Under the pieces are notes generated by a model. That model saw nothing but the letters and a program-made list of their open reading frames with translations, was not told the origin of the DNA and ran no database searches. A program made the translations under genes and the position numbers. From positions 1 to 22,631 of the IMG/VR virus record IMGVR_UViG_3300025127_000309: a stretch of 22,631 bases of DNA, one strand, 5' to 3'. The DNA is from a virus. Positions within the stretch are counted from its first letter, which is position 1, and each line of letters opens with the position of its first letter. This document shows, piece after piece, positions 8,509-17,835 of this stretch.

Positions 8509-8850
8509 ATGGGAATTAATTCAACGGAAGTATCATATAGCTTTGGTCAGCTAGGTAGTGGATTCTGTCGTACGTTAGGAGCTTTCACTCCACCTAGCGG
8601 TAAAGTTATAGTAGGTATTCAGTTTTTGGAAGACACAGAGTTAGCTGCTCTTACTGCTGACACAACTCAAGGTGATGATGCAGCATTTGTAGGTTTTTCG
8701 ACTACTGATAATGCTAATGGTGTTGGTTCTGACGCAATAGTTAACACGTCTTTATTTCCAGCAGGCATGACTATATATGGAAGATGGACTAGTGTTACAT
8801 TAGCAGCAGAAACTACAACTGGTGGTATAATCTGTTACTTCGGAGAATAA
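8509..8850 (+). CDS. Small virion-type protein of unknown function
   Basis: This 113-residue protein is predicted to be almost all beta strand: VSYSFGQLGSGF, GKVIVGIQFLED, IYGRWTSVTLA, GIICYFGE. The pattern (N-terminal FGQLGS, central PPSGKV, FPAGMTIYGRW near the end) matches small proteins I remember from uncultured marine phages, located next to tail or decoration genes and without known function. There is no signal peptide. Its stop shares one base with the start of the large adhesin (TAATG), so the two are probably translationally coupled and may act together, for instance as an attachment or decoration protein for the fibre. That last step is inference. Confidence 0.65.
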   Translation: MGINSTEVSYSFGQLGSGFCRTLGAFTPPSGKVIVGIQFLEDTELAALTADTTQGDDAAFVGFSTTDNANGVGSDAIVNTSLFPAGMTIYGRWTSVTLAAETTTGGIICYFGE

Positions 8851-11800
8851 TGCTAGGTTTATCTTCAGGCTTAATAAAAGGTGCGTCAACGCTACGCTCT
8901 ATAGTAAAATCAGGTTTACAAGCTTGGTATAAGTCGGATAGAACTCAAGCGCCTTTAGGTGAAGAATTAGTTGTTAATGGAGGTTTTGCTATAGGACACG
9001 AAATACTTCCAGTTGAAGATTTAAGTTCTTTTAGCGTGGGCGTTTTAGCTACAGATATTGGTTTTGTAGGTTCATCACAGAGTGATAGTAACTCACCTGC
9101 ACCTGCTATAGTAGAAGTTAACGGAAGAAAAGGTATTAGATTAGTCACAACTGGCAGTATTGTTCAGCTTAACTTAAACAATGCTTTAAACGTAGGTAGT
9201 AGTTATCTTTTAAAATATGAAGTGTTAGAACACAATACAGGCGTTATTCAAGCAGGTGGATGGGACACTAACTATGATGGAGTTACAGAAGATCCTACGT
9301 TACCTAACTCTGTTGGTAAACATGAATTTTTATTGAAAAACAAATCTAGTGTTCACTCTCATTTTTCTATAAAAAGACATAGTAGTAAAAATCCTTTAGA
9401 TATTGTTATAACTAATTTGTCTTTAAAACAAGTAAATCCTAATGATAGTTTTGTAAATAATGGTAATGTTACGTTTGAAGATGGTGTAGCTAAATTAGCT
9501 AGAAACACTGGTGTTAGCGGTGGTTTGAGACAAAACGATTTATTTTCATTTGGTAAAACTTATGAGATAACTTATGAAATAACACAGACCCAATCAAATA
9601 GTATTTACATTGAACAACAAGGTCAAGGAGAAGATCTTGATGGATCTGTTGGTGTACATAAACATATATATACACCAGGTGGATCTAGTTTTACATATTT
9701 AAGTATTCAAAGAAGGAATCCTAACGATTCTTCTGAAATACATTTTAAAAGTATATCTGCAAGAGAAGTAACAAACTCTGTTAAAGATCACTCTAGTAAT
9801 AATAATACTGCTACTTTATACTCTGGTGTTTGTTTAGATTTCGATGGGTCTAATGATGAAATATGTATAGATAATAGACCTATATCTACAGGGACTAGTA
9901 TAACAGCAGCTTTTTGGATTAAGCCTGATACTAGTACAGTTAATAGAATATTTTTATCTAATGGTAGATACCAAGAACATGGGTGGTATATATGGCAAAA
10001 TGGAGCTCAAATTAAAGTCACGTTAAATAATGAAGATGGTGGTGTAGGTAGTCTTCACACTACCCCTGCACAGGATAATTTTTATACTAACGATGCTTGG
10101 CAAAGAGTAGTTGTAGTAATACCACCTAATGGCCAGGTAAGTTTCTACAAAGACGGTGAGCTAAAGAAAACTGAAACTGCTTCTTATACTTGGAAAGCCT
10201 CTCAAAGTGATGATAAATTAGTTATAGGTAATTTATATACTGGAAATTACCAGTACAAAGGACAACTTGCTGATGTTCAAATATACGATAAATTATGGAC
10301 GGGTTCAGATGTAACTTTCGATTATAATAACCCTGATAAAGACGTTTTTGATAATATTAATTCAAGTATATTACCATCAAACTGTAAAGCCCTATATAGA
10401 CTAAACGAAGGCGCTGGTAATAGACTTTATGATGCCGCACCTGTTTTAGGTGATAATTTACTACCAGCGATTAGCACGTTTAATATTAACGGTCCTAACA
10501 CAGATGAAATTTCAATTGTTAATGGTAACGCAGTATTTAACAGTAGTTCGGTAGGTAATGAATATTTATTAAAAGGAGGTATTTCTAACATTAACACTAG
10601 TGGTATTTTAGAAATATCTATAACTGTAGAAAATCATGTTAGTGGATCAGTAAGAGCTTATTTTGGAGATCCAGATACGCTAGGTAATGGTAAAGTGATT
10701 GCTACTGGTAATGGAACGTTTAAGCTTATTGTAAAGCCTGATGCTAATGATTTTTATATACAAGCAAATAATCCAGGGTTTGAAGGTACTGTTACAGCTA
10801 TAAGTGCAAAAGAAATAACACCTGCGAGCTCTGTAGTTCAAACGTCTTGGGTTGCGAGTAACTGGGTAGTATCTCAACCTTATATTCCTCAATATGCTAA
10901 ATCATCTTTTTCTAAAAAACTTGTATTTACAGATGTTGATGTTGATGTAGACGTAGGTGCTCAATCAATACCTGACAATCAAGCTTTCTCTGTTTCTTTT
11001 TGGTACGCTCAAACTGCTGACTCTACTTCAGACAACTATATACTATCTAAACACGACAGTAAAGATGATTATATAAAAATTTTTGATCAAAATACACACG
11101 TAGAATTTAAGGTTAATGGTGGAACAGTAGTATCTTTTAATATAACCGATTTAACTGATTTTAAACTTAGTCATATAGTACTTACTAGAGCTTCAGGGAA
11201 TAATCCTATTACTAAATGTTATGTTAACGGTATTTTAGAAGCTACAGATACTAGTGCTAATGCAGATGGTGTTTTTGAATACCAGCAAATAGGTGCTGGT
11301 GGTACAGATAATGCTGGTACTTTCTTTTTAGATGAATTAGCAATATTAAATAAAGAACTTTCTTTAACTGAAGTTCAAGAAATATTTAACTCTGGTACAG
11401 CTTTAGATGTTAGAAATCACAGTGCTTATTCTAACTTAATAGGTTACTGGAGAAATAATGGTGCAGATACTTGGACTGATTTATCTACTTATAGTAATGA
11501 CGGTACTGTCAACGGTACACCAACGATAATAAAGCTTCAAGAAGTTCCATTGTTTAATAAAGATACTTTAGGTTTACCGATGAACAGACCTAACGAAGGA
11601 AGTTTAAACTTTGATGGAGACGGTTATGCTAGTATTTCAAGTGATCCTTCTCTTACTAGTCCTAGTGTTTCTGTAGAGTGCTGGATTAAACTAAAAGAAA
11701 ATCCAGAAATTCTTTTAGGTGCCGTATCTAAATACCAAACTAATCAAACAAAACCTTGGCTTTTAGGTATTACCAATAGCCGTTATGTAAAGTGGTTTCA

Positions 11801-12161
11801 AAATGGTGGAACCCATCCTATAGTTGCTGATGCTAGCACTTCAGATAGATTAAGTTTAGACACTTGGCGTCATGTAGCTGTTACTTATGATGGAGGTACT
11901 TTAGAAACTCCGGTGTCAACAAACAACGCTAGACAAATATTTATAGATGGAGAATTAAGAGCTTCTGATACAGATTCTAGTGCTGAAGATGGTCCTATAA
12001 TAGACACTCACAACACAGAAGTAGAAATAGGTAGGTATGCTGAGCAAGCTAGCAAATCGGATAACGCTTATATTGATGATGTTAAAATATATAATAGAGT
12101 TTTGACAGCTGCTGAAGTTAAAAAAAATTACAACGCGACTAAAGGTAAACACAAAAACTAA
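8850..12161 (+). CDS. Large multi-LamG (concanavalin-like) adhesin, probable tail/head fibre or receptor-binding protein
   Basis: The 1103 residues are built from repeated beta-sandwich modules. Three LamG/concanavalin-A-like domains are visible at about residues 325-495, 688-849 and 917-1099. Each opens with a strand such as LDFDGSNDE, KLVFTDVDV or LNFDGDGYA, continues with a W-containing strand (AAFWIKPD, VSFWYAQ, VECWIKL), a WxxVVVxP/WRHVAVTYD strand and a xxxFYKDGE/FIDGEL hairpin, and ends with a DVxIYxxxL-type strand. Other modules of about 110-150 residues, ending near residues 195, 307 and 657 with xxISxKEV-like motifs, resemble carbohydrate-binding sandwiches. Linkers of the type LIGYWRNNG/ALYRLNEGAG join them. 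There is no signal peptide and no catalytic site that I recognise. LamG modules commonly bind glycans, so attachment to host surface polysaccharide is the likely role. It overlaps both neighbours by one base (TAATG). Confidence 0.8.
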   Translation: MLGLSSGLIKGASTLRSIVKSGLQAWYKSDRTQAPLGEELVVNGGFAIGHEILPVEDLSSFSVGVLATDIGFVGSSQSDSNSPAPAIVEVNGRKGIRLVTTGSIVQLNLNNALNVGSSYLLKYEVLEHNTGVIQAGGWDTNYDGVTEDPTLPNSVGKHEFLLKNKSSVHSHFSIKRHSSKNPLDIVITNLSLKQVNPNDSFVNNGNVTFEDGVAKLARNTGVSGGLRQNDLFSFGKTYEITYEITQTQSNSIYIEQQGQGEDLDGSVGVHKHIYTPGGSSFTYLSIQRRNPNDSSEIHFKSISAREVTNSVKDHSSNNNTATLYSGVCLDFDGSNDEICIDNRPISTGTSITAAFWIKPDTSTVNRIFLSNGRYQEHGWYIWQNGAQIKVTLNNEDGGVGSLHTTPAQDNFYTNDAWQRVVVVIPPNGQVSFYKDGELKKTETASYTWKASQSDDKLVIGNLYTGNYQYKGQLADVQIYDKLWTGSDVTFDYNNPDKDVFDNINSSILPSNCKALYRLNEGAGNRLYDAAPVLGDNLLPAISTFNINGPNTDEISIVNGNAVFNSSSVGNEYLLKGGISNINTSGILEISITVENHVSGSVRAYFGDPDTLGNGKVIATGNGTFKLIVKPDANDFYIQANNPGFEGTVTAISAKEITPASSVVQTSWVASNWVVSQPYIPQYAKSSFSKKLVFTDVDVDVDVGAQSIPDNQAFSVSFWYAQTADSTSDNYILSKHDSKDDYIKIFDQNTHVEFKVNGGTVVSFNITDLTDFKLSHIVLTRASGNNPITKCYVNGILEATDTSANADGVFEYQQIGAGGTDNAGTFFLDELAILNKELSLTEVQEIFNSGTALDVRNHSAYSNLIGYWRNNGADTWTDLSTYSNDGTVNGTPTIIKLQEVPLFNKDTLGLPMNRPNEGSLNFDGDGYASISSDPSLTSPSVSVECWIKLKENPEILLGAVSKYQTNQTKPWLLGITNSRYVKWFQNGGTHPIVADASTSDRLSLDTWRHVAVTYDGGTLETPVSTNNARQIFIDGELRASDTDSSAEDGPIIDTHNTEVEIGRYAEQASKSDNAYIDDVKIYNRVLTAAEVKKNYNATKGKHKN

Positions 12162-12373
12162 TGGAAATATTTAAAGATAATAATGACTGGAACGAAAAAG
12201 CAGTGGTTGGTTTTATAGCTTTTGCAGTTATGTGTTTAATAATGATAGCTGACTTAGTCACTGGTTGGACAGGTCAAGATTTAATAATAAACGAATACGT
12301 ATACAACTCATTTGTTTGGGTTGTACTTGGTTGCTTCGGTATATCAGGTGTAGAGAAGTTTGCTAAAAAATAA
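12161..12373 (+). CDS. Two-transmembrane small protein, candidate holin
   Basis: This 70-residue protein has two hydrophobic helices, about residues 14-34 (VVGFIAFAVMCLIMIADLVT) and 47-64 (YNSFVWVVLGCFGI), separated by a short polar turn, with a charged N-terminus (MEIFKDNNDWNEK) and a basic end (EKFAKK). Size and topology fit small class II-type phage holins, which permeabilise the inner membrane at lysis. Similar short membrane proteins occur in marine phage late operons, usually uncharacterised. No endolysin gene is in the window, so the lysis role is unconfirmed. The start overlaps the adhesin stop by one base. Confidence 0.6.
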   Translation: MEIFKDNNDWNEKAVVGFIAFAVMCLIMIADLVTGWTGQDLIINEYVYNSFVWVVLGCFGISGVEKFAKK

Positions 12374-12377
12374 AGTT

Positions 12378-12545
12378 ATGGCTTTTAAAATGAAATCACC
12401 TTTTAAAAAGAAAGGCACTAAAGATGCTTGTTATCACAAGGTAAAATCAAGAGTTAAAGTATGGCCTTCTGCCTACGCTTCAGGTCAGCTTGTACAATGT
12501 AGAAAGAAAGGTGCTTCTAACTGGGGTACTAGCAAAAAGAAGTAG
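12378..12545 (+). CDS. Small basic protein 1 (MAFKM-SPFKKK tag)
   Basis: This 55-residue Lys-rich protein starts at the ATG at 12378, 4 bases after the holin-like stop. The longer reading from 12360 adds MLKNKV and overlaps the upstream gene; it is disfavoured because the next gene begins with the same tag (MAFKMKSPFKKK here, MAFKMNSPFKKK there). The body has two cysteines and the stretch KVWPSAYASGQLVQCRKKGA, a motif I remember as widespread in marine phage small proteins, without assigned function. High charge suggests nucleic-acid association or packing inside the virion, which is inference. Confidence 0.65.
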   Translation: MAFKMKSPFKKKGTKDACYHKVKSRVKVWPSAYASGQLVQCRKKGASNWGTSKKK

Positions 12546-12546
12546 T

Positions 12547-12810
12547 ATGGCGTTTAAAATGAACTCACCATTTAAGAAAAAGATGGGTGACTTTAAACAC
12601 TCTGACGCACCAGATGCTAAGGGTAAGTTCAAAGAATTGTCAGCTCCATCGTTGGCTAGCTGGATGATTAAGTCTCGCAAAGGTAATTTATCTAAGATTA
12701 TTAGTAGCTTAAATCAGCAAGTTGTTTTTAGAAGAGGTAAAGATCCTAAGTACGCAGCTAAAATGCGTAGAACTATGGATATAGTTAGAAAAAGATTAGG
12801 TAAAAAATGA
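12547..12810 (+). CDS. Small basic protein 2 (MAFKM-SPFKKK tag)
   Basis: This 87-residue protein follows the previous stop (TAG) by one base. The start at 12547 is chosen because it gives the N-terminal tag shared with the preceding protein; the upstream ATG at 12490 lies deep inside that gene. After the tag comes a probable helical domain (LSAPSLASWMIKSRKG, LSKIISSLNQQVVFRRGKD, KYAAKMRRTMDIVRKRLGKK) with a strongly positive charge. I recognise no enzyme or DNA-binding fold. The stop overlaps the next start (ATGA), implying coupling. It is possibly a virion-packaged protein. Confidence 0.65.
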   Translation: MAFKMNSPFKKKMGDFKHSDAPDAKGKFKELSAPSLASWMIKSRKGNLSKIISSLNQQVVFRRGKDPKYAAKMRRTMDIVRKRLGKK

Positions 12811-13271
12811 AAGCTTACAGAGGTGTTTTAAAAGCTAGAATATCTAAGTTATACGGAGGAGATGTGACTATAGAAAAAGCTAGAAAATTAAAGTCTAGAA
12901 AAGACGCTACAGCTAGAGATAAGCAGTTGGCTAATTGGTTTATTAACATGCAGACTAACAGACCTTCACCTGCTAAAAAACGTAAAGATCCTTTAGTTGG
13001 TACTGGTAAAAAACCTAAAGGTAGCGGCAGAAGATTATACACAGATGAAAACCCTAAAGATACTGTATCTATAAAATTTGCTACAGTATCTGATGCTAGA
13101 AAAACAATAGCTAAAGTAAAAAGAATAAACAAGCCATACGCTAGAAAAATACAAATACTTACAGTGTTAGAGCAGAGAGCTAGAGTTATGGGTAAAATGG
13201 AACAATCAAGATTAGCTAAACAAGCTAAAGCACAACTAAAAAAACAAAATGAGTTACGTACAAAAAAATAA
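12807..13271 (+). CDS. Small basic protein 3, conserved marine-phage type, function unknown
   Basis: This is a 154-residue, Lys/Arg-rich protein. The N-terminal half has helical character (ISKLYGGDVTIEKARKLKSR; ARDKQLANWFINMQ). A Pro/Lys/Gly linker follows (KKPKGSGRRLYTDENPKDT), then a conserved-looking block at about residues 90-130 (SIKFATVSDARKTIAKVK; INKPYARKIQILTVLEQRA) and a basic helical tail. The middle block matches proteins I remember from many uncultured marine phages, none with an assigned role. It begins through an ATGA overlap with the previous gene, and the next gene starts 23 bases before its stop. Confidence 0.68.
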   Translation: MKAYRGVLKARISKLYGGDVTIEKARKLKSRKDATARDKQLANWFINMQTNRPSPAKKRKDPLVGTGKKPKGSGRRLYTDENPKDTVSIKFATVSDARKTIAKVKRINKPYARKIQILTVLEQRARVMGKMEQSRLAKQAKAQLKKQNELRTKK

Positions 13272-13527
13272 TCCTATAAAAAAGATTAAAGGTGGAGGCA
13301 CAAAGAAAGTTTGTTTGCCTGCTGCTAAAGTTCGTAGCATGAGTGCTAGTGAAAGATCTAAAGTTACTAGCGCTAAACGTAAAGCTGCAGCTAGTGGTAG
13401 TTATAGAAGATCTAGTAAATCAAACGTGAAAGGTGCTAGAAAAAAAGGTGCTACGCTTAGAGACTGGTTTAAAAAAGAAAACTGGGTACAAGTAGGTAAT
13501 CCAAAGAAAAAATGTGGTGAGAACTAA
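13249..13527 (+). CDS. Small basic protein 4 (KNNP tag)
   Basis: This 92-residue protein starts inside the previous gene in another frame. The start is supported by the N-terminal match between MSYVQKNNPIKK here and MAYKQKNNPYPV in the following gene. Features are two cysteines, a serine/lysine-rich middle (SMSASERSKVTSAKRKAAAS) and a C-terminal KGATLRDWFKKENWVQVGNP block ending KKKCGEN. A similar ATLRDWF-W block occurs in short proteins of phages and large DNA viruses that I remember as a domain of unknown function. Extreme basicity suggests nucleic-acid contact. Its stop codon shares one base with the next start (TAATG). Confidence 0.65.
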   Translation: MSYVQKNNPIKKIKGGGTKKVCLPAAKVRSMSASERSKVTSAKRKAAASGSYRRSSKSNVKGARKKGATLRDWFKKENWVQVGNPKKKCGEN

Positions 13528-13856
13528 TGGCATATAAACAAAAAAATAATCCATATCCTGTTACATCTTGCGGTAGACGTAGAACGTTTATGCAAGACAA
13601 TCCTTTAAAAAAGCTTAGAAAAACTACTAGAGGAAAAGGTAGACATTTTCTTCATGCCAAAGAGGGTGCGGGTATGACTGAAGCTGGTAGAAAAGCTTAT
13701 AAAAAAGAAAATCCTGGTAGTACTTTATCAGCACCAGTAACAGGTAAAGTTAAAGCGGGTAGTAAAGCTGCTAAACGTAGAAAAAGTTTTTGTGCTAGAT
13801 CAAGAAGCTGGAAAAGCGAAAGAGGTTTAGCTGCTAGAAGAAGATGGAAATGTTAA
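13527..13856 (+). CDS. Small basic protein 5 (KNNP tag), DUF6321-like
   Basis: This 109-residue protein is very rich in Lys and Arg. It begins MAYKQKNNP and has a second tag-like element (FMQDNPLKK) near residues 27-35. The rest carries EGAGMTEAGRKAYKKENPGS, then AGSKAAKRRKSFCARSRSW and a terminal AARRRWKC. This block strongly resembles a phage-associated domain of unknown function that I recall as DUF6321; the name is from memory. Four cysteines are present, so a metal site is possible. It is the last of the basic series, and the secreted T9SS-type gene starts 11 bases later. Confidence 0.68.
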   Translation: MAYKQKNNPYPVTSCGRRRTFMQDNPLKKLRKTTRGKGRHFLHAKEGAGMTEAGRKAYKKENPGSTLSAPVTGKVKAGSKAAKRRKSFCARSRSWKSERGLAARRRWKC

Positions 13857-13867
13857 TAAATAAATCA

Positions 13868-16126
13868 ATGAAAAAAATACTTTACTTACTACTTTTTACT
13901 AGCGTAGCTTCTAGCGCTCAAGACTCTTTACTATATGATTGTTTAGGTAATGACGTTACTGGTATTGAATCTTGGATAGGTGACGGCTTTTGTGATGATG
14001 GTGCTTACTCGTGGAACGGTTACGACGTTTACTTTAACTGCCCTGAGTTTAACTTTGATAATGGTGATTGTCCTCTTCCTATATTAGATACTATATTTGG
14101 TTGTATGAACTTTATGGCTTGGAACTACGTACCTGAAGCAAACTATGATGATGGTTCTTGTGACATGCCTATTATAGGTTGTATGGACTCTGAAGCTATA
14201 AACTACAACCCATTAGCAGAGGTTGACAATGGTGGTTGTGCTAATACACAATGCCAAGACGGAGAAGCTAAAATGCTTTTTGAAATAACATTAGATCAGT
14301 ACCCAGGCGAGACGGGATGGATATTAACAGACATATCAAATGGCCAACCAGTAGCAAGCGTTTCACCTGGTGATTACTCTTACGATCAAGCGAACACAAC
14401 TATACCTTATCAGTTATGTGTACCTGAAACAGGAGTAGAACTTATATTAAGTGATACTTACGGAGACGGCATGACTGGTTCGTTGTTTAATAATGACTCT
14501 GATGACGGTAGATTTACTATACTAGCAGACTTAGAACCTTGCGGTAGCCCTGATGTTATATGGGAACTAGAAGATGCAGGCTTTGGTAGTGCAGCTTACT
14601 CGGGCGCGATATGGATAGAGCATTGTGATATACCTGTGAACTATGGTTGCACTGATAATAGTTACGTAGAGTTTGATCCTATGGCTGAAGTGGATGACAG
14701 TAGCTGTGTAACACCTCATGTTGTAGGTTGTTTAAACTGGAACTCTTTTAATTATGATTCACTAGCTACGTTAAACGAAATAATACCTGTGTGTGAGTAT
14801 AGGATGGTTTTAAATGATAGTGGTGGTGATGGTTGGGGTGATTCTCATTTAGTTATCACACAGGGTGATAGTATAATTGGAGTATACACGTTAGGACCTG
14901 GTATATACGAAGAGGTTAAGTGGTTGTATCTTAGAACAGATATACCTATTGAAATAAAGTACTTTGAAGTTGGGCCACCTCAAGTACCACAAGAAGAGCT
15001 AGAGTTTCAAACAATGCACAACTCTTTCTTTTTGTTTAACGATGCTGTAGATTTATTAATAGCGGGCGGTGCTAATCCTTTTGCATTTAACGGTGCTGGT
15101 GCTCTTCAACCGTTTGAACCACCGTTTTGGCACACATACACTGCTTTACCTTATTGTGGTGATTATTGTATAGATGTAGTAGAAGGATGTATGGACCCTG
15201 AAGCTTTTAACTACGATTCGTTAGCTAATACAGATCATGGATATTGTGTTCCTGTAGTTGAAGGTTGTACAAATGAATTAGCTTTTAATTATGATTCGTT
15301 AGCTAATGTAGATAACGAAGGTTGCATACCTGTAGTTGTAGGTTGTATGGATGTCGTAGCTTGGAACTATAACAGTTTAGCTAATACATCGGATGAATCT
15401 TGTTTATACTTCGGCTGCATGGATCCTGAAGCAGATAATTACGATCCTAACGCTAATGTAGATAACGGTGGCTGTTTTACTACTATATTAGGTTGTACTG
15501 ACCCTGAAGCTTTTAATTATAGTGAAGAAGCAAACACAGATGATTTCTCTTGTGTACCTGTTATATATGGTTGTTTAGATTCGCTAGCATTTAATTATGA
15601 CACCTCAGCTAATACTAGTAATGATAACTGCTTAGAGGTTATTGAAGGTTGCATGGATAACACAGCATATAACTATGACGCTTTTGCAAATACTGAAAGC
15701 TACGATTGTTTATATGACGCTGGTTGTATTGATGGGCCTGGTATTCCATACTGGTTAAACGATACATGTTATGCTTGGGTTATTATGATTGATCCATACT
15801 GCTGTAATAATAACTGGGATGAGAAGTGCCAACAGTTATATTGGCATTGTTACGGTGATACTGAGTTAGATGTGAGAGATTTAATGAGAACAGCTGACAT
15901 AGCTATATACCCAGTACCGATGGGTGATAATGTTAATATATTAACTAAAGGTAAAGTTGCTATTAAAATACATGATATTCAAGGTAAACTTATTAAACAT
16001 ATAAGAGAGAGGCAAACTATAAAAGGTTTAAATACTTTAAATGTAAAATACATGCCATCTGGTATTTACAGTTTTAGCGTAACTTATAAAGGTGTAACAA
16101 TGACTCAAAAAGTAATAAAACAATGA
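13868..16126 (+). CDS. Secreted Cys-rich repeat protein with a C-terminal type IX secretion (T9SS) sorting domain
   Basis: The chosen start (MKKILYLLLFTSVASSAQ) gives 752 residues and a clean Sec signal peptide; an upstream ATG at 13844 would add eight residues and overlap the previous gene. Residues 36-68 resemble a Lin12/Notch-like Ca-binding repeat (WIGDGFCDDG, FNFDNGDC). Eleven copies of a 21-residue Cys repeat follow, consensus GC-M/T-D..A.NYD then AN.D...C, at residues 78, 104, 260, 287, 440, 466, 492, 516, 542, 568 and 594. Beta domains with Asp/Gly motifs (SDTYGDGM; NDSGGDGWGD) lie between them. Near residue 640 is a DPYCCNNNWDEKC motif. The last 70 residues match a type A T9SS sorting domain (AIYPVPMGDNVNI, KIHDIQGKL, YMPSGIYSFSV, QKVIKQ). 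T9SS cargo is normally exported across the outer membrane, the domain cleaved, and the product released or anchored to lipopolysaccharide. Such proteins are typical of Bacteroidetes hosts and very unusual in a phage structural operon. Confidence 0.85.
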   Translation: MKKILYLLLFTSVASSAQDSLLYDCLGNDVTGIESWIGDGFCDDGAYSWNGYDVYFNCPEFNFDNGDCPLPILDTIFGCMNFMAWNYVPEANYDDGSCDMPIIGCMDSEAINYNPLAEVDNGGCANTQCQDGEAKMLFEITLDQYPGETGWILTDISNGQPVASVSPGDYSYDQANTTIPYQLCVPETGVELILSDTYGDGMTGSLFNNDSDDGRFTILADLEPCGSPDVIWELEDAGFGSAAYSGAIWIEHCDIPVNYGCTDNSYVEFDPMAEVDDSSCVTPHVVGCLNWNSFNYDSLATLNEIIPVCEYRMVLNDSGGDGWGDSHLVITQGDSIIGVYTLGPGIYEEVKWLYLRTDIPIEIKYFEVGPPQVPQEELEFQTMHNSFFLFNDAVDLLIAGGANPFAFNGAGALQPFEPPFWHTYTALPYCGDYCIDVVEGCMDPEAFNYDSLANTDHGYCVPVVEGCTNELAFNYDSLANVDNEGCIPVVVGCMDVVAWNYNSLANTSDESCLYFGCMDPEADNYDPNANVDNGGCFTTILGCTDPEAFNYSEEANTDDFSCVPVIYGCLDSLAFNYDTSANTSNDNCLEVIEGCMDNTAYNYDAFANTESYDCLYDAGCIDGPGIPYWLNDTCYAWVIMIDPYCCNNNWDEKCQQLYWHCYGDTELDVRDLMRTADIAIYPVPMGDNVNILTKGKVAIKIHDIQGKLIKHIRERQTIKGLNTLNVKYMPSGIYSFSVTYKGVTMTQKVIKQ
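15185..15709 (+). repeat. Seven in-frame tandem coding repeats of about 78 bp
   Basis: GC-D/NYD/AN-C units start at 15185, 15263, 15341, 15413, 15491, 15569 and 15647 (periods 78, 78, 72, 78, 78, 78). Four more, irregularly spaced, copies lie upstream at 14099, 14177, 14645 and 14726. The copies are similar in protein but diverged in DNA, pointing to old duplications under selection for the Cys/Asp scaffold. Confidence 0.85.
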
Positions 16127-17211
16127 TGAAGTGGTTTAAAGGTTTTTTATTAGAAACTTTAATTAGTATAGGTCTTGTTATAATATTTTCTTTTGCTTTA
16201 ATAGCAATATCTAAAAGTTGTAATGGTCAAGGTTTAAACAAGATATTTAAGTACTCTACATTTTATGCCGCTGTTAATGGTGGTACATCATTAGGTGATG
16301 ATCAGATATTTTCTATATCATCAGGTTTATTAGAGCAACAGATAATTGAAATGCCATTTGATTATTCTTTATCTATAGGTATTAGAAAGATTAAAAGGTT
16401 TGGTTACGAAAATAGAGCTAATACATTTTACAATGGTACTGAAAACTCTTACTCTGACGCAGCAACAATAGGTAGAGTAGATGGGTTTGAATACTTATTT
16501 GAATCAGACTTTGTAAGACGTTTAGGTATAAACTATATTAATCAACATCACTTTGTTAGATATGTTGCTGATGATTGGGTTGCTAAAGTAGAATACCTTG
16601 AAGATGGTTTTGCTGATATAAAGTATTTTGAGGCATCTCAGAGATACAGAAAACAATTTGGTGAAGGTAAACTATCTTTAAACGCAGGAGCTGTTCAGAG
16701 GTTGTCTGAGCCATACGGATTTGATCCTCTAGCTGATTGGATATTAGACAATGGTTCACTGCACTATACATACTTAGCTTTACAAGAAGGTTACGATATA
16801 AGCTTAGATGGTATATACTTAGCCCCTGACGGTACTATAGTTGCTAATAGCCAAGAAGTGTGGGAAGAAGTTGTTATACCACAAGTTATAGATGAGTATG
16901 TAGAAAAAGAAAGAAGTGCAATACCTAATATATTAGAATATTCTATAGTTGTGGGTTTGGACTATTACTATTTTACAAAAGATTTTTGGTTTCATTCATG
17001 GGGAAACGTAATGCCGTATCACTTAGAAACAAAAAACGAATATTCATATCAAAAGTTCAACGGTGGTCAATGGGTTGATTACTCTGGCGGGCTTATATTT
17101 GGTTATAGATTTAACAAAAGCTTAGGTGTTTTTGTTGAGGGTAGATACAACAAGTACTGGAACAGGGACTGGCACAACTTTAGTGTTGGTGTAAACTATG
17201 TAATATTTTAA
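16123..17211 (+). CDS. Predicted outer-membrane beta-barrel protein
   Basis: This 362-residue protein has an N-terminal hydrophobic segment (about residues 11-31, LETLISIGLVIIFSFALIAI) followed by SKSCNGQG, consistent with a Sec signal or anchor. The mature part alternates polar and aromatic residues in strand-length blocks (STFYAAVNGGTSLG, DYSLSIGIRKIKRFGYEN, GKLSLNAGAVQRL, YSIVVGLDYYYFT, GGLIFGYRFNKSLGVFVEGR) and ends SVGVNYVIF. A C-terminal aromatic in a final amphipathic strand is the signal recognised by the BAM outer-membrane assembly machinery. It resembles small OmpA/porin-like barrels without a periplasmic domain, and I recall similar proteins in marine Bacteroidetes phages. Possible roles are altering envelope permeability or masking receptors; neither is shown. 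The start overlaps the T9SS gene stop (ATGATG); the second ATG at 16126 is an equally good start. Confidence 0.72.
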   Translation: MMKWFKGFLLETLISIGLVIIFSFALIAISKSCNGQGLNKIFKYSTFYAAVNGGTSLGDDQIFSISSGLLEQQIIEMPFDYSLSIGIRKIKRFGYENRANTFYNGTENSYSDAATIGRVDGFEYLFESDFVRRLGINYINQHHFVRYVADDWVAKVEYLEDGFADIKYFEASQRYRKQFGEGKLSLNAGAVQRLSEPYGFDPLADWILDNGSLHYTYLALQEGYDISLDGIYLAPDGTIVANSQEVWEEVVIPQVIDEYVEKERSAIPNILEYSIVVGLDYYYFTKDFWFHSWGNVMPYHLETKNEYSYQKFNGGQWVDYSGGLIFGYRFNKSLGVFVEGRYNKYWNRDWHNFSVGVNYVIF

Positions 17212-17213
17212 TT

Positions 17214-17498
17214 ATGGCAAAAGAATTAAACGAAGACACAACGTTACAACTAAGCATAAAAACTTTAGCAGGTATAGCAGTTTTAATATTTACCCTGGTG
17301 GGTATGTGGTTTACGTTGCAAGCAGATATAACAGAGGCAAAAGAATTACCATTACCTCCAGATCCAGAAATTACTCGTATGGAGTACGATATGAAAGATC
17401 AGCTTATACGTCAGACTATTATGACTACTCAAGAAGACGTTAAAGAAATAAAGGATCAAATGATCCGTATGGAAAGCAAGATAGACAAACTTAACTAG
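17214..17498 (+). CDS. Single-TM, coiled-coil small protein (spanin- or holin-accessory-like)
   Basis: This 94-residue protein has a short cytoplasmic-type N-terminus (MAKELNEDTTLQLS), one strong TM helix at about residues 15-34 (IKTLAGIAVLIFTLVGMWFT), a Pro-rich hinge (LPLPPDPE) and a C-terminal heptad-like helix (residues 56-94, MKDQLIRQTIMTTQEDVKEI...IDKLN). That N-in/C-out, TM-plus-coiled-coil layout is that of inner-membrane spanins (Rz-type) and of several phage accessory membrane proteins. The gene immediately downstream encodes a small exported protein, but it is not an obvious lipoprotein partner. Function is unproven. It starts 2 bases after the beta-barrel stop. Confidence 0.62.
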   Translation: MAKELNEDTTLQLSIKTLAGIAVLIFTLVGMWFTLQADITEAKELPLPPDPEITRMEYDMKDQLIRQTIMTTQEDVKEIKDQMIRMESKIDKLN

Positions 17499-17499
17499 T

Positions 17500-17835
17500 A
17501 TGAAAAAAATTATATTAGCATCACTATTAAGCTTTAGTTGTATTGCTCAAGACTTCCCTGATGGCTTAGTAGTTGTAGAGTTTAACGCAAGCTTTAATCA
17601 AGCAAATGCTGTTGAGTGGCTACCTAAATTAACTGACTGTGAAATACAGAGAGTTGATATAGCTGCAGACTCACGTTGGGCAAGTGAATATAAAATAGTT
17701 GTAGTTCCTACGTTAGTTGTATTTAATAATAACGAAGAGGCTGCAAGATTTCAAGCTAACATTATGATGACGATGGAAGCTACAAGAAAAGAACTGCAAG
17801 ATGCAGTTGATGAAATAACAATGGAAGCATTTTAA
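17500..17835 (+). CDS. Exported thioredoxin-fold protein lacking the CxxC active site
   Basis: This 111-residue protein has an N-terminal signal peptide (MKKIILASLLSFSCIAQ) whose end in AQ is typical of Bacteroidetes; the Cys three residues before the probable cut makes a lipoprotein possible but the lipobox is poor. The mature part follows thioredoxin topology: strand VVVEFNASF (where thioredoxins have the WCxxC turn, here SFNQA), helix, strand EIQRVDIAAD, then VVVPTLVVFN with the cis-proline segment and strand, and a final helix. Only one cysteine (LTDCEI) remains in the mature protein. The fold is therefore likely retained while disulfide chemistry is lost, suggesting a binding or structural role in the periplasm. 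The start lies 1 base after the previous stop. I remember similar genes in uncultured marine phages next to tail genes. Confidence 0.68.
   Translation: MKKIILASLLSFSCIAQDFPDGLVVVEFNASFNQANAVEWLPKLTDCEIQRVDIAADSRWASEYKIVVVPTLVVFNNNEEAARFQANIMMTMEATRKELQDAVDEITMEAF

Follow-up and report, generated by a model that had tools for sequence, protein, structure and literature searches.

A phage late gene with a type A T9SS sorting domain lies in a recurring gene module of marine flavobacterial phages

Cargo proteins for the type IX secretion system (T9SS) encoded by phages have been described before (de Jonge 2019, Bellas 2020; PMC6949934, PMC7468147). Sorting-domain proteins are present in crAss-like cluster 2 phages (PMC6949934), and the sorting domains of Cryophage were called a unique occurrence by the authors (PMC7468147). 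On the host side, Cellulophaga baltica with gliding or T9SS mutations shows extracellular phage resistance, and adhesins exported by the T9SS are possible receptors (PMC13288928). That a phage envelope protein can exclude superinfecting phages is known from Llp of phage T5 (PMC9586334).

The locus described here was analysed in a viral contig of 22,631 nucleotides (IMG/VR record IMGVR_UViG_3300025127_000309, positions 1 to 22,631; hereafter, the window), which carries terminase (partial), portal, capsid, neck, and muzzle genes. The phage is a podovirus of marine, flavobacterial hosts and kin to Elemovirus and Pervagoviridae; its portal relatives, at 26–52% identity, comprise Elemovirus, Cellulophaga phage phi38:1 and others, Maribacter phage Panino, and an uncultured Manatee Spring podovirus. 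Membership in the Crassvirales is not claimed, as the muzzle profile PF25731 was the sole match and the portal relatives belong to Elemovirus, Pervagoviridae, and Pachyviridae. In the closest portal-relative lineages, the capsid gene and the gene next to it are followed by the neck genes directly or past a few small genes. In the window, about 10.9 kb separates this capsid-gene pair from the neck genes and contains a LamG-domain protein, small basic proteins, and the T9SS cargo with its neighbours, so that the cargo gene sits among late/structural genes. The LamG-domain protein (8850–12161, 1103 residues) has three LamG/ConA-like stretches and is possibly a host- or glycan-binding appendage. 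It is followed by a two-TM, holin-like protein of 70 amino acids (12161–12373, plus strand; topology by inspection, no family match), which is often found near the module, and by five small, very basic proteins in a row (12360–13856) just upstream of the cargo, which are kept in close relatives.

The cargo gene (13868–16126, plus strand, as are all features given below) encodes an acidic protein of 752 amino acids (116 D+E, 23 K+R) with 38 Cys, to which an alternative in-frame ATG at 13844 would add eight residues; its homologues in IMG/VR are 32–82% identical. The leader, MKKILYLLLFTSVASSA followed by Q, was read by inspection as a type I Sec signal peptide (13868–13918) with predicted cleavage after Ala17 (between SSA and QD), and a similar leader, ending in SQ, AQ, or GQ, starts almost all complete cargo homologues. 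The body comprises an LNR-like Cys/Asp motif, GDGFCDDG...FNFDNGDC (13979–14071; by inspection, no profile match), two beta-rich domains predicted with AlphaFold2 (residues 133–248, 14264–14611, pLDDT mostly 73–85 with weaker loops; residues 308–426, 14789–15145, pLDDT mostly 78–88 with a weaker C-terminal end), and tandem Cys mini-repeats of the form GCMDPxAxNYDxxANxDxxxC (residues 434–615, 15167–15712). Such repeats are common to many large host proteins and were found in 39 of 99 genomes drawn from the order of the module-bearing metagenome-assembled genome (MAG).

Residues 680–752 of the cargo (15905–16123) are a type A T9SS sorting domain (CTD). PF18962 (Por_Secre_tail) matched residues 680–750 with 37.4 bits (cut-off 27, E 3e-9), and TIGR04183 matched residues 680–752 with 34.9 bits (cut-off 23, E 1e-8) over 72 of 72 model positions; searched with the C-terminus alone, the scores were 43.4 and 40.9 bits, respectively, whereas the type B model TIGR04131 reached 17.3 bits on the cargo, far under its cut-off of 35. 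In the AlphaFold2 model, built from 34 sequences, the CTD has a pLDDT of 81–88 and forms a compact seven-stranded sandwich as in solved CTDs. Its top fold match in the PDB was 8glk_D, a structure of NucA-CTD inside the T9SS translocon of Flavobacterium johnsoniae (TM 0.81 by target, rmsd 1.7 Å). By target length, TM was 0.77 for 8glj_D and 0.73 for 8gl6_D, and the matches ranked after NucA-CTD include FspA-CTD, mirolase CTD, and RemA-CTD; a sequence profile search of the PDB agreed with these. For type A domains, the motifs PxGxY and KxxxK are expected within the last 22 residues (PMC5445135). The cargo has PSGIYSFS close to its C-terminus, and its basic end, QKVIKQ, holds K-x-x-K, not K-x-x-x-K. 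A preliminary description had placed a type A domain at 15898–16126, within which the genome-level profile match falls, and had pointed out IYPVP in place of YPNP; the domain is borne out by two curated profiles and by the fold match, and the YPVP variant is genuine, being shared by several relatives, whereas YPNP is found in the majority of relatives. TIGR04183 was above cut-off in 19 of 20 close uncultured relatives and gave no match in any of seven cultured/reference records even at E ≤ 1, which, together with the fold match to NucA-CTD, argues against a chance occurrence of the domain. In the likely host group, T9SS cargo is widespread, since TIGR04183 proteins were present in 53 of the 60 Flavobacteriales genomes drawn.

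The start codon of the next gene (16123–17211) overlaps the cargo stop (ATGA). Its product, 362 residues long, is a predicted, phage-specific outer-membrane beta-barrel protein based on AlphaFold2 and Foldseek; the model has a mean pLDDT of 61, so that the general fold alone is trusted, and its structural matches are porins and the barrels of autotransporters, with E about 1e-8 at best. An outer-membrane barrel is encoded beside a T9SS cargo in the SprB/SprF pair as well. Homology of the phage barrel to PorV or SprF was rejected, as hhalign gave probabilities of 1–7%, compared to 85% for the SprF–PorV positive control, and neither PF11751 (Pfam) nor any NCBIfam model was matched, nor was profile homology to NF033709 found; a direct role of the barrel in the T9SS is thus unsupported. 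Downstream, a protein of 94 amino acids (17214–17498) has a single N-terminal TM segment followed by a predicted coiled coil, i.e., an i-spanin-like topology by inspection, and is retained in the modules of relatives. An exported thioredoxin-fold protein of 111 amino acids (17500–17835; PF00085 at E 9e-5, just below cut-off) has no CxxC, which is also missing from the thioredoxin-fold relatives listed. This redox-dead protein is conserved beside the Cys-rich cargo.

Cargo, predicted outer-membrane barrel, one-TM coiled-coil protein, and redox-dead thioredoxin-fold protein form a recurring module. Scanning IMG/VR for the barrel family yielded at least 549 loci, from which the best 80 by similarity to the window's barrel were kept; after removal of repeats and addition of five loci from MAG contigs, 82 loci were examined. 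The CTD protein ended directly upstream of the barrel gene in 69 of these and lay elsewhere in the locus in six; another six did not have enough flank, and the last, a fragment located where its contig ends, had no CTD protein (i.e., a nearby CTD protein in 75 of 76 loci with informative flank). TIGR04183 was above cut-off in 50 of the 50 barrel-ascertained viral records searched with this model. Two barrel contigs (L116 and L117) were binned with Candidatus Nitrosopelagicus and Maricaulis MAGs and are probably mis-binned virus contigs. Records G029 and G062 have a TIGR04183 match near each contig end, perhaps due to terminal redundancy. The barrel occurred in one of 198 genomes drawn from the order of the module-bearing MAG, this one being the same MAG that the barrel scan had picked up. 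The barrel, coiled-coil, and thioredoxin-fold families had no match in the searched stretches of the seven cultured/reference records, and cargo, barrel, and thioredoxin-fold protein were all unmatched in tblastn searches against cultured phages. In the larger contigs, PHROG scans of the flanking regions for signs of differing phage backbones turned up no structural markers that were clear. The preliminary description had overlooked the more telling fact, namely the place of the cargo in this recurring module and the exchangeability of its sorting tail.

A control sample independent of barrel similarity was chosen via the capsid and consisted of 27 records of at least 20 kb each. Here, the barrel was present in 15 of 27 records and TIGR04183 in 2 of 27, with several records stopping near or inside the barrel gene, so that absence there is not always informative. 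The generalisation from the 75 of 76 loci that the barrel always lies beside a type A CTD protein was corrected accordingly: the linkage between barrel and exported partner is robust where readable, and the link to the type A domain is not universal. The order of the module genes was permuted among the capsid-ascertained loci. Four loci (L223–L226) encode the same cargo body but end in a tail of about 36 residues, e.g., DLLGRP...NKLLLFIYDDGNVEKKFIK, and in the three of these tails that were scanned no sorting-domain model of Pfam or NCBIfam matched at E ≤ 10. The tail, with the pattern DxLGRx...NxLLFYIYDDGTVEKKIIxE, occurred in 21 of the 60 Flavobacteriales genomes that were drawn, with up to 43 matches per genome, and formed the extreme C-terminus in 11 of 12 host loci examined by pattern (L236–L247), often in proteins with a signal-peptide-like N-terminus. 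This short tail could be an alternative signal for sorting. In a divergent barrel branch (L230–L234), a Cys-containing exported protein of 236–268 residues is encoded close downstream; its C-terminus, VIYNINGQAI..GLYI.NGK or a similar sequence, is perhaps a further short tail.

Cargo pairs were found with near-equal bodies and quite different CTDs, as well as the reverse. In L075, for example, the body is 84–87% identical to those of its relatives and the CTD just 25–30%, although the record still passes TIGR04183. Synonymous divergence is unequal between body and CTD of the same pair (dS of 1.33 and 0.43 in L045–L060, for instance), as recombination would give, and dN/dS of the CTD is 0.17–0.36, i.e., below 1. 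Between the window and L001, the CTD differs though both of its flanks are similar; this case counters simple co-evolution of CTD and barrel, despite a Spearman correlation of 0.54 between CTD and barrel distances among close barrels. These comparisons indicate that phages exchange sorting domains as whole units and without regard to the cargo body, the incoming domain again being a sorting domain. The cargos hold on to a sorting signal rather than to any single sequence, a pattern better explained by real use of the T9SS than by decoration of a virion protein.

The best overall explanation, to which we assign a probability of roughly 40%, is that the cargo is a phage-made T9SS substrate used in a late change of the cell surface. 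The cargo would be exported by Sec and then fold in the periplasm with many disulfides, the host SprA/PorV translocon would recognise it through its C-terminal domain, and it would end up displayed at the infected cell's surface or shed from it, beside the phage barrel and the two further envelope proteins of the module. The changed surface would then no longer allow further phages or the phage's own progeny to adsorb (superinfection exclusion or progeny protection). Very probably, the cargo is indeed exported, and cargo and barrel probably act jointly; that the cargo blocks adsorption is a tentative proposal. Surface blocking would be useful, as T9SS and gliding mutants of C. baltica show extracellular phage resistance and T9SS adhesins are possible receptors (PMC13288928). 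The position of the cargo among late genes counts against a role in exclusion, because exclusion factors are often early, and the small share of capsid-ascertained records with TIGR04183, along with the four bodies carrying an unrecognised short tail, was counted against the explanation as a whole. The module, with its phage-made outer-membrane protein, suggests that these phages remodel the surface of the cells that they infect. Many marine flavophages might carry such a T9SS-dependent surface-remodelling module, with the cargo tail, type A CTD or short, being swapped to fit the export signals of the host, which is conceivable but somewhat doubtful. From the preliminary description, the type A domain, the T9SS address, and the late/structural gene setting stand, whereas the uses that it had put forward (sealing of the surface, superinfection exclusion, or help with release) are still hypothetical; phage-encoded T9SS cargo as such has the precedents cited at the outset. 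Among the proposed roles, we would rank late surface blocking first, a role in lysis second, and adhesion third.

In lysis, the barrel and the one-TM coiled-coil protein would span the envelope instead of spanins, and the T9SS cargo would weaken or open the outer surface for escape of the progeny. In most loci whose barrel is close to that of the window, an M15 endolysin and a three-TM holin are encoded about 1.7–2.5 kb downstream of the point at which the barrel gene starts, DUF5675 proteins (possible endolysins) lie near the barrel in other lineages, the 94-residue protein has an i-spanin-like topology, and no spanin was recognised among the annotated proteins. Yet the spanin identity of the 94-residue protein was judged by eye, profile searches recognised no lytic domain in the cargo, and the window's own subclade (window, L036/L001, and L037) kept the module with no such endolysin or holin found in the flank, which makes a lysis role rather unlikely. 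Less likely still is that the cargo is a surface adhesin by which infected cells stick to cells or particles, leaving progeny near new hosts rather than excluding phages. The long stalk of Cys mini-repeats, of a type abundant in large marine Flavobacteriales proteins, and the surface address (PF18962, TIGR04183) would fit an adhesin, but no adhesion domain was recognised in the cargo by profile search, and the benefit would have to come within the brief period that precedes lysis. Virions often bear Ig-like domains, and the location of the cargo gene between capsid and neck genes would agree with the CTD being an Ig-like domain borrowed to decorate a virion protein and having no use in export; the signal peptide at the opposite end, the Cys-rich body, the exported-looking neighbours, and the replacement of the CTD by a tail that also terminates exported host proteins render this very improbable. 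That the cargo is a passenger gene acquired from a host and has no phage function, as the similarity of its repeat region to host proteins might suggest, is the least credible reading in view of a dN/dS well below 1, its recurrence across many contigs and gene orders, and the near absence of the barrel from the 198 host-order genomes.

If late surface remodelling by T9SS cargo is correct, viruses of abundant ocean bacteria would rebuild the cell surface via the very host system that also exports candidate phage receptors, and superinfection exclusion or release in Bacteroidota phages would gain a molecular basis that can be tested. Swaps of sorting domains between otherwise similar cargos would represent a natural experiment on acceptance by the T9SS, and the short tail hints that marine Flavobacteriales may have one more export signal.

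The four-gene module and the swapping of its tails appear to be new to the literature: no description of either was found in the literature searched, in which subscription journals were thinly covered. Compared to the crAss-like cluster 2 phages and Cryophage, the window shares phage-encoded T9SS sorting-domain proteins, located near head genes in the crAss-like phages; theirs, however, carry BACON or other domains along with the sorting domain, or are an endoglucanase, a GH39 and a PA14 protein, and the passages on them make no mention of linked genes for a barrel, a coiled-coil protein, or a thioredoxin-fold protein (PMC6949934, PMC7468147). With Llp of T5, the proposed role has in common that a phage envelope protein halts further adsorption, a comparison of how the proteins work only, as Llp is a small periplasmic lipoprotein jamming FhuA (PMC9586334) and the cargo is a large, predicted T9SS-exported surface protein. 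SprF/PorP and PorV resemble the window in that an outer-membrane barrel gene lies beside a T9SS cargo, but differ in that the window's barrel has no detectable profile homology to them. Similar in architecture are the type A cargos of Bacteroidota (e.g., NucA, FspA, and RemA of F. johnsoniae), which combine a signal peptide, in the phage cargo a predicted one, with a C-terminal seven-stranded sandwich of about 72 residues, PxGxY, and a basic end, and whose fold agrees with that of the phage domain in the substrate CTDs 8glk, 8glj, and 8gl6; in the window, however, this architecture is found in a phage late gene, coupled to a phage-specific barrel, and with a sorting domain exchanged among phages.
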